Part shown: piece by piece, positions 41,962 to 44,934 of the stretch
Layout: every line of letters begins with the position of its first letter
Position numbering within the stretch: the stretch's first letter is position 1
Assembly: GCA_003223555.1 (NCBI GenBank)
Contig: QHVM01000080.1
Coordinates: 1-64,000, forward strand
Source: Acidobacteriota bacterium
GTDB lineage: Bacteria > Acidobacteriota > Vicinamibacteria > Fen-336
Direction: 5' to 3'
Length of the DNA: 64,000 nt
Position numbers and translations under genes: made by a program
The notes under the pieces: generated by a model
Databases searched by the model: none
What the model saw: the letters and a program-made list of their open reading frames with translations, nothing else
Told to the model about the DNA's origin: nothing

Positions 41962-42432
41962 CTGCTGAGCACGCCGCGGGACCTGGCCCTCATCGTCCTG
42001 CGGACCGTGGTCGTTTACGTCTCCATCCTCCTCGGCTTCCGGCTGATCGGCAAGCGCGAGGTGGGCCAGCTCGCGCCCTTCGACCTCGCGCTCATGCTCC
42101 TGATCGCCAACGCGGTCCAGAACGCGATGGTCGGACCCGACAGCTCGCTCCTCGGCGGCCTGACCGCGGCCTTCGTCCTGCTCACCGTCAACTACGTCCT
42201 GGGCCGGGTGGCCGTCCGCAGCCGCAAGGTCGAGCGGCTCCTGCGCGGCCGGGCCCGCATCCTCGTCAACCGCGGCCACGTCTACGAGGAGAACCTCCGG
42301 GCGGAGGGCATCACCCACGAGGACCTGCTCCAGGCGATCCGCGAAGGCGGCTGCACGACCCTCGAGGACTGCCGCCTCGTCGTGCTGGAGGTCGACGGCC
42401 GGATCTCGGTCCTGGAGAAAAAGAGCCCTTGA
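41962..42432 (+). CDS. DUF421/YetF-family membrane protein
   Basis: About 156 residues in frame with conserved DUF421 features: FRLIGKREVGQLAPFDLALM, then LLIANAVQNAMVG. Three transmembrane helices lie near 12-32, 40-58 and 62-82. The C-terminal cytoplasmic part has RILVNRGHVYEENLRAEGIT. There is no ATG, GTG or TTG at the expected start. Homology supports a start near CTG at 41962, while the first standard codon is GTG at 42007, inside the first helix. The gene lies 8 bases after korB and is probably cotranscribed. Its stop overlaps the -35 box of the downstream RNA promoter. Confidence 0.82.
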   Translation: MLSTPRDLALIVLRTVVVYVSILLGFRLIGKREVGQLAPFDLALMLLIANAVQNAMVGPDSSLLGGLTAAFVLLTVNYVLGRVAVRSRKVERLLRGRARILVNRGHVYEENLRAEGITHEDLLQAIREGGCTTLEDCRLVVLEVDGRISVLEKKSP

Positions 42433-42459
42433 CAGCATGCCGGCGCGGCGCGATATTTT
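42429..42459 (+). promoter_or_regulatory. strong sigma70-type promoter of the structured RNA
   Basis: A perfect TTGACA (42429-42434) is followed after 17 bases by GATATT (42452-42457), or after 19 bases by TATTTT (42454-42459). It sits at the stop codon of the DUF421 gene and points at the structured region. The predicted start is near 42464-42467. Confidence 0.65.
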
Positions 42460-42524
42460 AAGAGCAGGGTTCGCCCGGACGGGAGCCCGGCAAAAAGAGC
42501 CGTTCGCAGCGAACGGAGGTGCCT

Positions 42525-42566
42525 ATGGCGTGCGAGGGCAGTCCACCGGGCTGCGTAGGGGCTTGA
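42525..42566 (+). CDS. 13-codon reading frame inside the structured RNA
   Basis: An ATG at 42525 has an ideal ribosome binding site (GGAGG, 5 bases upstream) and opens a 13-residue frame, MACEGSPPGCVGA, before TGA. It has two cysteines seven residues apart. Such a frame could be a leader peptide or a small secreted precursor, or simply chance within an RNA gene. Nothing else in the sequence supports translation. Confidence 0.3.
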   Translation: MACEGSPPGCVGA

Positions 42567-42644
42567 AGGCCCCGTCGGACACGAGACAAAAACGATAGCG
42601 CCCCTCGCGGGGCGCGGGGGGCTTGGATGCCCCCGAGCAAACCT

Positions 42645-42674
42645 GGGCCCGGGACTCTTCCCGGGCCCTTTTTT
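42645..42674 (+). terminator. perfect intrinsic terminator
   Basis: A 10-bp perfect GC-rich stem (42645-42654 with 42659-42668) with loop CTCT is followed by six T residues (42669-42674). It works for the plus strand and ends the structured RNA and any read-through from korAB-DUF421. Confidence 0.92.
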
Positions 42675-42694
42675 GATTGGATGGGCGTTCCCCG

Positions 42695-44308
42695 TCATCT
42701 GCCGAGCAGCGGGAGCATGATCCGCAGCGGTCCCTCTTCGGTCTGCAGGAGCACATCGGTGGACTCGATGGCGGTCACGGACCCATCGGCCAGCCTGTCT
42801 CCCGTCCGGTAAGCATAGAGCGCTCCCGCCGGCGAGTAGACGAGCGCCGTCCAGCGGCCGCCCGTGGCGACGAGGCCGGCCAGCTCGAACTCCTGCACCG
42901 TCATCTCCTCCGGCCGCAGGTGGAGCCGCCGCGGCGCGGCCGGCGGTCCGAGCGGGGGAACGGCATCGGCGCCGCCCGACGAACCCACCGCATCCAGCAC
43001 CGCGCCGCGCAGGTCGGCCGCCGGCACGTCGCGGGCCCAGACGCTGATCCGGCCCGGGACGTCGCGCGGCGCGGCCGCGAGGGACGGGTCCGCCTCGGCC
43101 AGCGCGGCCAGCACGTCGCGCACCTCGGCCCGCTTGACGGCCAGGCTCGCCTTCGGCGCGTCCGCCCCGAGCGCAGGCCCGGCGGTGGCGGCGCGCGCGC
43201 GAGAGACCCTGCGTAGCGGTCCGGGGGAGATCTTCATCCCGCCCTTCTGGAGCAGCGACAGCGCCTCGTCCAGCTCGACCGCGGGGAAGTCCAGGCTGAG
43301 CCGCCCGGAGACGTCCGCGTCCACCAGGAACGCTTCCCCCGTGAGCTGGTAGAGCACGCCGAACACGTCCGCCCAGGCGACGTCTCGCAGCCGCAGGTCG
43401 AGGCTGCCCCGTCGCGGGCGGCGCACGAAGGGAGCGCGCAGGACCGCCGCGCCCGACGGATCGCGATCGGAGCGGCACTGCTCCGCGCTGAAGGGCTGCT
43501 GGGTGGGCAGCGGGATCTCGGCGTCGAGGCCGACGACCGGGCTCCGCCCCCGGACCTCGAAGCGGTAGCAGGTGCCCTGGCGGGCCAGCAGCACCTGGGA
43601 GACGCGGAAGAAGCCGCGCTCGAGCCGGCGCTCGAAGCCCCGCAGCGTCGCCTCGCCGACCGCCAGCCCGCGGAGGAAGAACTCGTCGCCCGCCGTGGCC
43701 TGGCTGAGCACCATCGGACGCCCCCGCACGACCGCCGCCGCCTCGGAGAGGAACAGGCGCGGGTTGCGGCGGTTGCGCCGGAGCGTGTCGATGGTGTCCG
43801 CCTTGGCGAGCGACATCGCTTGATCGCGCAGGTAGGCGTCGGCCTGCGGCCGCGGCACGCCGGCGAGCTGGGCGCGCACGCCCTCGGGAGGCCCAGGAAG
43901 GGGCGCGGCCTCGGGGCGGTACGGCAGGCGCAGGACGGACACCAGGTGGACGGCGTCGCCCGGCGCGGGCGACAGGGTGAGGCTCTCCACGTCGATGAGC
44001 CGCGGGGAGAGCGCGACCTGGCGGAAGAAGCGGTCGACCTCGTCGTAGCCGCCGACGCCGCTCAGGTCCACCACCACGTCCGCCCACGCGCTGCGCGAAT
44101 CGAACGGGGGCCGGGGCTGCACCTCCAGCGACTCGAGGCCGGTGGACTGGGCCAGGTCGAGGACCAGGGCGCGGTCGGCGGGCGGGTTGGGGCCGTCGGG
44201 CAGGATCCGGCGCAGCGTCTCCAGCCGGCGGTCGAGCAGCAGCCGCTCCTCGGGGAAGGGATGAGCGCCGAGGACCGCCAGCAGGACGAGGAAGGCCCGG
44301 GGGCGAAT
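42695..44308 (-). CDS. orphan PilO / secretin-N / PilP-like fusion protein
   Basis: Up to 537 residues. The N-terminal part reads as a hydrophobic helix (RAFLVLLAVLGA) and a PilO-like domain (LETLRRILPDG, then GYDEVDRFFRQVALSPRLID). The middle has a secretin short N-domain (VLYQLTGEAFLVDADVSGRL). The end is PilP-like (FELAGLVATGGRWTALVYSP). Type IV pilus alignment proteins are normally separate (PilM-N-O-P-Q); here PilM, PilN and PilQ are absent. The PilO homology extends upstream of the first standard start (GTG at 44122) to an ATT at 44308, one base after the RRM stop. The start is therefore uncertain. Confidence 0.6.
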   Translation of the reverse strand: MRPRAFLVLLAVLGAHPFPEERLLLDRRLETLRRILPDGPNPPADRALVLDLAQSTGLESLEVQPRPPFDSRSAWADVVVDLSGVGGYDEVDRFFRQVALSPRLIDVESLTLSPAPGDAVHLVSVLRLPYRPEAAPLPGPPEGVRAQLAGVPRPQADAYLRDQAMSLAKADTIDTLRRNRRNPRLFLSEAAAVVRGRPMVLSQATAGDEFFLRGLAVGEATLRGFERRLERGFFRVSQVLLARQGTCYRFEVRGRSPVVGLDAEIPLPTQQPFSAEQCRSDRDPSGAAVLRAPFVRRPRRGSLDLRLRDVAWADVFGVLYQLTGEAFLVDADVSGRLSLDFPAVELDEALSLLQKGGMKISPGPLRRVSRARAATAGPALGADAPKASLAVKRAEVRDVLAALAEADPSLAAAPRDVPGRISVWARDVPAADLRGAVLDAVGSSGGADAVPPLGPPAAPRRLHLRPEEMTVQEFELAGLVATGGRWTALVYSPAGALYAYRTGDRLADGSVTAIESTDVLLQTEEGPLRIMLPLLGR

Positions 44309-44309
44309 C

Positions 44310-44762
44310 CTAGTCGAAGCCGCGCTTCCGGCGACGGATGTTGCGCCGGCTGCCCTTGCTCTTGAAGGGCCGGCCGCGGTCGTCCATCGGCGTGAACTCG
44401 CTGAAGCTGGGGGCGCTGTAGCCGGGGCCGGGCGGGCGATACCCGCCGGGCCGGAACGACGGGCCGCCCATGCCCGGCGCGCGCGGGGGCCGGTTCTCGG
44501 CCTCGTTGACGCGCAGGGGCCGGCCCTTGAGGTCCCGGCCGTTCATCATGCTGATGGACTTCTCGGCCGCCTCGTCGCTGTCGAACTCGACGAAGGCGAA
44601 GCCGCGGGGACGTCCGGTCTCGCGGTCGGTGGGCACCTTGGCGTCCACGACCTTGCCGGCGGCGCTGAATGCCTGGATGAGCTCCTCGCGGGTGACGTCG
44701 AAGCTCAGGTTGCCGACGAACACCTTGTTCGAAATGGCCGCTTCTCCTCTGGACGATGCCAC
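44310..44762 (-). CDS. RRM-domain RNA-binding protein
   Basis: One RRM fills the N-terminal half: RNP2 KVFVGNLSFD and RNP1 RGFAFVEFDS are intact. A Gly/Pro-rich tail and a basic end (RRNIRRRKRGFD) follow. It is probably a cold-inducible-type RNA chaperone. The start is unclear. A GTG at 44762 gives 150 residues. In typical relatives the protein begins at M-S-N-K, which here is an ATT at 44735 with AGGAG 8 bases before it. An AUU start is thus possible. The upstream extension to 44858 is basic and unconserved-looking. Confidence 0.88.
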   Translation of the reverse strand: MASSRGEAAISNKVFVGNLSFDVTREELIQAFSAAGKVVDAKVPTDRETGRPRGFAFVEFDSDEAAEKSISMMNGRDLKGRPLRVNEAENRPPRAPGMGGPSFRPGGYRPPGPGYSAPSFSEFTPMDDRGRPFKSKGSRRNIRRRKRGFD

Positions 44763-44934
44763 GCGCCGCCCGTTGCCGCCTCGCGGCGACCGACGAAGCG
44801 TCCTCCGGGGCGCGGCGGCCGGGGACGTGCGACTGTAGCAGAAACCCGATCTAGCCAACAGGCGCTTCTGAGGGTCACCTTAGCACGCATGCCGGCGGGG
44901 TGGGGCGGCAGCGCCACATTATGCGGTCCCGCGG

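Follow-up and report, generated by a model that had tools for sequence, protein, structure and literature searches.

Closest described systems

Spot 42/SpfP is a dual-function small RNA with a small ORF, and in Sinorhizobium the rnTrpL RNA, whose leader peptide has 14 residues, itself also acts in trans. Short peptides are commonly encoded by bacterial sRNAs (PMC5521070), and the Sinorhizobium peptide peTrpL acts in trans as well (PMC7298713). SgrS/SgrT and VcdRP each have their own promoter and terminator, a structured RNA and a small ORF (PMC8672173). At MgtL, ribosome drop-off at EPDP in the first residues alters the fold of the mRNA (PMC11282234), and EF-P relieves pausing at di-proline motifs, PPN being among those tested (PMC11611912).

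The locus studied here lies in a 64,000-nucleotide stretch of Acidobacteriota DNA (contig QHVM01000080.1, positions 1 to 64,000; hereafter the window). It resembles SgrS/SgrT and VcdRP in having its own promoter and terminator, a structured RNA and a small ORF, but the peptides of those systems and of Spot 42/SpfP are longer and conserved, whereas here only an acidic-x-PP pattern and the reading frame are kept. The ORF also overlaps a conserved C-rich motif, unlike the ORFs of the dual-function RNAs, and pairing of that motif in trans is only proposed. Like the MgtL leader ORF of enterobacterial mgtA, the RNA combines a very short ORF, early acidic and proline codons and RNA structure, although MgtL lies ahead of mgtA and works in cis via Rho termination, while this RNA has a terminator of its own and no same-strand gene downstream in 12 of its 14 known copies. 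With rnTrpL/peTrpL it shares the form of a short terminated RNA with a small leader peptide; rnTrpL, however, is a trp operon attenuator, whereas this RNA belongs to no operon and has PP rather than Trp codons. Our literature search yielded very little on small RNAs in the Acidobacteriota, and the RNA constitutes a new family.

Promoter and terminator

The features in the window, all on the forward strand, are as follows.

42429..42434 (+): -35 box TTGACA, TTGAC[AG] in 14/14 homologous copies
42452..42457 (+): -10 box GATATT after a 17-nt spacer, [GC]A[TC][AC]TT in 14/14 copies
42464..42674 (+): transcript of about 210 nt, inferred from the promoter and terminator positions
42500..42516 (+): predicted 5' leader hairpin CCGTTCG-CAG-CGAACGG, including the first Shine-Dalgarno bases
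42515..42519 (+): Shine-Dalgarno GGAGG, GGAG in 13/13 aligned homologues and in the 14th copy
42525..42566 (+): mini-ORF MACEGSPPGCVGA, 13 codons plus TGA, ATG or GTG in frame in 12/14 copies and PP in frame in 14/14
42542..42547 (+): UCCRCC motif (TCCACC here) across the PP codons, a proposed anti-Shine-Dalgarno-like seed, 14/14
42558..42573 (+): predicted hairpin P1, GGGGCU-UGAA-GGCCCC, with the stop codon within the loop; most homologues have an equivalent
42598..42615 (+): predicted hairpin P2, GCGCCCC-TCGC-GGGGCGC, with compensatory changes
42617..42634 (+): hairpin P3, GGGGGC-TTGGAT-GCCCCC, from the fold and the covariation alignment
42645..42674 (+): intrinsic terminator, a covarying 10-bp stem followed by six Ts

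An earlier reading of the window alone (the original prediction) had placed a TTGACA box over the stop codon of a DUF421 gene, 17 bases from a -10-like hexamer. The coordinates agree with this: the TGA occupies 42430-42432, and TTGACA-17-GATATT matches the sigma-70 consensus at 10 of 12 positions. The transcript ends were set at 7 nt past the -10 box and at the T run of the terminator, where the perfect 10-bp stem that had been described is indeed present (42645-42668, loop CTCT, then TTTTTT), closing the RNA at 42674. Scans of the whole window also bear out the claim that this is its strongest promoter and terminator pair: there is one further promoter-like site matching at 10 of 12 positions (TTGACG-17-TATATT, 18337-18309 on the reverse strand), and no second site with a long GC stem and an uninterrupted run of six Ts was found. 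TTGAC[AG]-17/18-[GC]A[TC][AC]TT precedes the RNA in all 14 copies and has merely four other loose matches across the 0.81 Mb of fetched loci.

Fold and covariation

The roughly 210 bases of dense hairpins that had been noted after the promoter are more stable than expected from their composition. The segment 42465-42674 has a minimum free energy of -113 kcal/mol against -96.2 +/- 5.0 in dinucleotide shuffles (z = -3.39; none of 200 shuffles was as stable), and two homologous regions gave z = -4.55 and -2.72. The overall fold is a row of four to five separate hairpins.

In the alignment of 14 copies, both-sided changes occur at 18 of 25 pairs (9.8 +/- 1.8 when shuffled) and there are 34 compensatory cells (14.4 +/- 2.8 in shuffles), figures from an alignment that was fitted to the structure and so favours it; the signal is lost when partners are slid by 1-3 columns. 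Nine of the 10 terminator pairs show both-sided changes among homologues. P1 is badly aligned by the covariance model (46% paired), but single-sequence folds give equivalents in most copies: GGGGCU/GGCCCC, CGGGCC/GGUCCG, GGAGCC/GGCUCC and GAGCCC/GGGCUC. The 3' hairpins thus covary above both shuffled and slid controls, which was the conserved structure the original prediction had called for in homologues, and this, with promoter and terminator present in 14 of 14 copies, supports its central claim of an independently expressed structured RNA as far as comparison of sequences can.

Comparison with known RNA classes

No Rfam 15 family, SRP, tmRNA and RNase P included, matches the window at gathering scores, in keeping with the absence of such signatures noted earlier. 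At E <= 10 there are sub-threshold matches alone, which draw mostly on the terminator and the hairpins next to it; the best chance match, HCV_J750, scores 25.8 bits where the cut-off is 90. The suggestion of a 6S-like RNA does not hold: RF00013 is unmatched in 42400-42720 even at E <= 10, and the same genome carries a separate 6S gene (G000:C138:53916-54096, forward strand, L210) scoring 100 bits to RF00013. The RNA is like 6S in standing alone, at about 200 nt, behind a strong promoter, but neither its sequence nor its fold matches, and it is predicted to form a row of four to five hairpins instead of the 6S rod with its central bubble. A drifted 6S or other known housekeeping RNA, changed past recognition, would account for the free-standing gene, the strong promoter and the similar length, yet with a separate 6S gene in the genome, no Rfam match, the wrong fold and a distribution limited to one family we find it hardly credible. 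A broad housekeeping role is likewise not supported, since the RNA is restricted to a single family of bacteria. What does stand is the proposal of a novel RNA.

Two other classes were considered and rejected. In a CsrA sponge of the CsrB/RsmZ type several loop GGAs are required, and the sole invariant GGA here is that of the Shine-Dalgarno sequence. A type I toxin-antitoxin system pairs a short hydrophobic membrane peptide with an antisense RNA; on the peptide side, which is where the comparison was made, the products here are 8-22 residues long, mostly acidic or polar and not hydrophobic.

Distribution

When related genomes were searched at the DNA level, the region turned up in a congener (73% identity) and in one further genus. 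The intergenic spaces next to korB and next to the convergent 475-aa gene described below yielded copies from 13 genomes, and a covariance model (R2) was built from them. The model matches 14 copies in 13 of the 14 genomes of one Acidobacteriota family in the class Vicinamibacteria, including 9 of 9 genomes at least 90% complete; the sole family genome with no match is 63% complete. The second copy in genome G002, which was outside the training set, scored 61 bits (E = 2e-13). It appears that the RNA is universal in this family of uncultivated soil Acidobacteriota.

No homologues were found beyond the family among 192 genomes of the class and 396 of the phylum, where the next matches are far weaker. 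Those in G119, G060, G122, G118 and G114 proved to be terminators with nearby GC hairpins, mostly behind groEL-like genes, with no promoter, Shine-Dalgarno or PP core; because of such look-alikes, homology outside the family is overstated by the E-values of the covariance model. At the other fetched weak loci a scan for promoter plus core found nothing, with a narrow pattern that also missed one true copy. The short DNA pattern GGCAGTCCNCCNGG, tried across the class, was unspecific, being as frequent as its reversed control. By tblastn, similarity is seen in all six frames, as the DNA identity predicts, so that coding on the minus strand is not singled out. The homologues show the locus to be a genuine small-RNA gene that had not been described before.

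A short reading frame inside the RNA

The original prediction was right about a structured RNA but treated it as purely non-coding, and so overlooked a Shine-Dalgarno sequence and 13-codon ORF (42515-42566) within it. Each copy reads GGAG[GC], a gap of 4-9 nt, AT[GCA] or GTG, two in-frame proline codons and a stop. At Shine-Dalgarno distance, 11 of the 14 copies have an ATG in frame and one a GTG (G003, with PP four codons downstream), where composition would give such an ATG by chance in about 2% of sequences. The gaps between Shine-Dalgarno and start represent every residue modulo 3, whereas those between start and PP are whole codons in every case (4, 5 or 6), although the copies share common descent and as few as two of the start-to-PP indels may be independent. 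The peptides are as follows.

AUG start, set 1: MACEGSPPGCVGA (window), MQYEGSPPGCVGP, MEFDGSPPGTAGP, MEDGPPDSEGGR, MLGDLDPPGVAGPCGAKMP
AUG start, set 2: MEASPPDC, MGAEGDPPV, MGAEDGPPV, MEDTPPNRVEA, MGDTPPNRAEG, MEDTPPNRAEG
GTG start: (GTG)MEQSPPGFEGGSTKGPRTSTLK
AUC or AUA start: IGLDSPPGTGGAT and IEALTPPGVQRAH

They range from 8 to 22 residues with PP as the sole constant. The few codons between AUG and PP are mostly acidic or small, most copies show acidic-x-[STGD]-PP with otherwise weak conservation, and the stop usually falls 1-12 codons past PP, within or beside P1. From the retained frame and start codon we infer that the mini-ORF is translated.

Conservation does not extend to the leader between promoter and Shine-Dalgarno sequence. 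Its identity between genera (0.752) is close to that of shuffled sequences (0.737), and in genus g6 it is nearly absent, so that transcription there would begin directly before the Shine-Dalgarno sequence. With promoter and core kept and the leader unconserved, selection acts on the promoter and the core and not between them.

Two copies depart from the AUG/GTG rule.

G002:C189:2516-2671 (-): G002b (L197), paralogous copy with AUC or AUA for AUG
G004:C233:3470-3625 (+): G004b (L198), paralogous copy with AUC or AUA for AUG

Both lie divergently upstream of hemE (with hemH next), in two genera, and G002 additionally holds a normal AUG copy. Both retain the promoter, GGAGG, UCCRCC, the hairpins and in-frame PP, and a stop follows 13 codons on. 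This class may have lost translation, which would favour a non-coding reading, or may initiate at rare start codons; lacking AUG, these copies mean that a need for translation is not demonstrable for every copy. Taken together, the comparisons suggest a short, Shine-Dalgarno-preceded ORF kept by selection, with AUC or AUA in two copies. The locus has three of the features of dual-function small RNAs: a promoter and an intrinsic terminator of its own, both kept in 14 of 14 copies, conserved structure, and a short ORF behind a Shine-Dalgarno sequence that is apparently under selection.

The UCCRCC motif

The RNA around the PP codons reads U-CCR-CCK-NNC. Within UCCRCC the T and both CC pairs are invariant in 14/14 copies, and the first proline codon is CCA or CCG in every copy. 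The codon preceding PP is AGT, GGT, GAT or ACT, so that positions 1 and 2 vary and the wobble T is present in 14 of 14, against 3.6% T at korB third positions in these genomes; the codon following PP ends in C in all 14 copies. RNAalifold pairs the GG.GG of the Shine-Dalgarno sequence with the CC.CC of the PP codons, a GGAGG:CCRCC self-pairing with one A.R mismatch whose bases hardly vary, so that covariation cannot probe it. On the alignments, then, promoter, Shine-Dalgarno sequence, PP frame, UCCRCC and hairpins are all shown to bear the marks of selection.

Explanations considered

The explanation that we favour, with moderate confidence, is a free-standing, family-specific small RNA that would be constrained both as RNA and as reading frame, with a miniature translation unit in its 5' part and covarying hairpins in its 3' part. 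Sigma-70 RNA polymerase would transcribe it from about 42464 to the terminator at 42674, and the 5' part would offer the ribosome a Shine-Dalgarno sequence, an AUG, a few codons, two prolines and a stop. The C-rich UCCRCC could pair in trans with purine-rich Shine-Dalgarno regions (GGYGGA) and, since it coincides exactly with the PP codons, could be gated by the ribosome: one paused at the early acidic-PP, a context of the EF-P or MgtL type, would cover the motif, while its absence or drop-off would expose it or allow it to fold back onto the RNA's own Shine-Dalgarno sequence. Such trans action on putative targets, gated at the PP codons, is a possible mechanism that we put forward tentatively; MgtL offers the nearest proven precedent. 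Points against the favoured explanation are the weak conservation of the peptides outside acidic-x-PP, the AUC or AUA of the two paralogous copies, the small number of independent indels behind the retained frame, and an Hfq match that stays below threshold in this genome. Its further extension, a translation-gated small RNA with its seed in two proline codons that turns pausing (EF-P, Mg2+, ribosome state) into regulation in trans, is speculative and we think it doubtful; the paralogous class beside hemE, with its AUC or AUA starts, may respond differently to initiation fidelity. If the mini-ORF does act as a gate, the RNA would correspond to a leader-peptide attenuator that stands alone, and would be a direct readout of di-proline pausing.

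A purely non-coding, trans-acting sRNA, in which GGAGG, AU and UCCRCC are motifs for binding RNA or protein and the mini-ORF is a by-product, is unlikely in our estimate. It would explain why wobble positions near PP are conserved equally with codon positions 1 and 2, and why G002b and G004b keep promoter, GGAGG, UCCRCC and hairpins despite AUC or AUA. It does not readily explain an AUG or GTG in frame at Shine-Dalgarno distance in 12 of 14 copies despite a saturated leader, nor why start-to-PP indels are all whole codons when those between Shine-Dalgarno and start are not, and even the two exceptional copies hold the frame and reach a stop at codon 14. The same wobble bases tell against the opposite reading, an mRNA for a functional micro-peptide whose hairpins merely stabilise and terminate the message, because they are conserved at sites where the amino acids vary; moreover PP alone is constant in peptides of 8-22 residues, and the hairpins 5' of the terminator show covariation of their own. 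We therefore judge a micro-peptide improbable, although the Shine-Dalgarno sequence, start, stop and acidic-x-[STGD]-PP pattern would suit one and peptide-encoding bacterial sRNAs are common (PMC5521070). The order of short ORF, hairpins and terminator also recalls a leader-peptide attenuator of the trpL or mgtL type controlling a same-strand gene downstream, and a same-strand ORF does follow the terminator in G002 (C48) and G004 (C233). We rejected this as a class and consider it very improbable, as the remaining 12 copies face a convergent gene, with no same-strand structural gene downstream, and neighbours vary by locus. The 14 copies offer a clean evolutionary test bed, with one AUG-less paralogous class and separable constraints on RNA and frame.

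Genomic neighbourhood

The link to korAB-DUF421 by which the RNA had been located proved incidental and is rejected, because DUF421 adjoins the RNA at this genome's locus alone and the copies of several relatives lie away from korB. In nine of the genomes examined, the RNA, a convergent gene for a 475-aa protein and a gene with one RRM domain lie within about 5 kb; the remaining genomes have korB as neighbour or a different locus.

Two neighbours may be described here. The 475-aa protein gene (window 42695-44122, reverse strand) is conserved beside the RNA, in convergent orientation, across nearly all genomes of the family; its product has no Pfam match and shows sub-threshold similarity to N-terminal parts of the secretins PilQ/HofQ. 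The gene for a single-RRM RNA-binding protein is found at window 44310-44858 (reverse strand) and at L200, L201, L202, L203, L204, L205, L208 and L130; in most family genomes it stays close to the 475-aa gene and the RNA, and its product is a possible lead for a partner of the RNA. Elsewhere, a 131-aa frame at G000:C2:316-462 (reverse strand, L211) resembles Hfq below threshold (24.3 bits, where the cut-off is 27) and is possibly a divergent Hfq.
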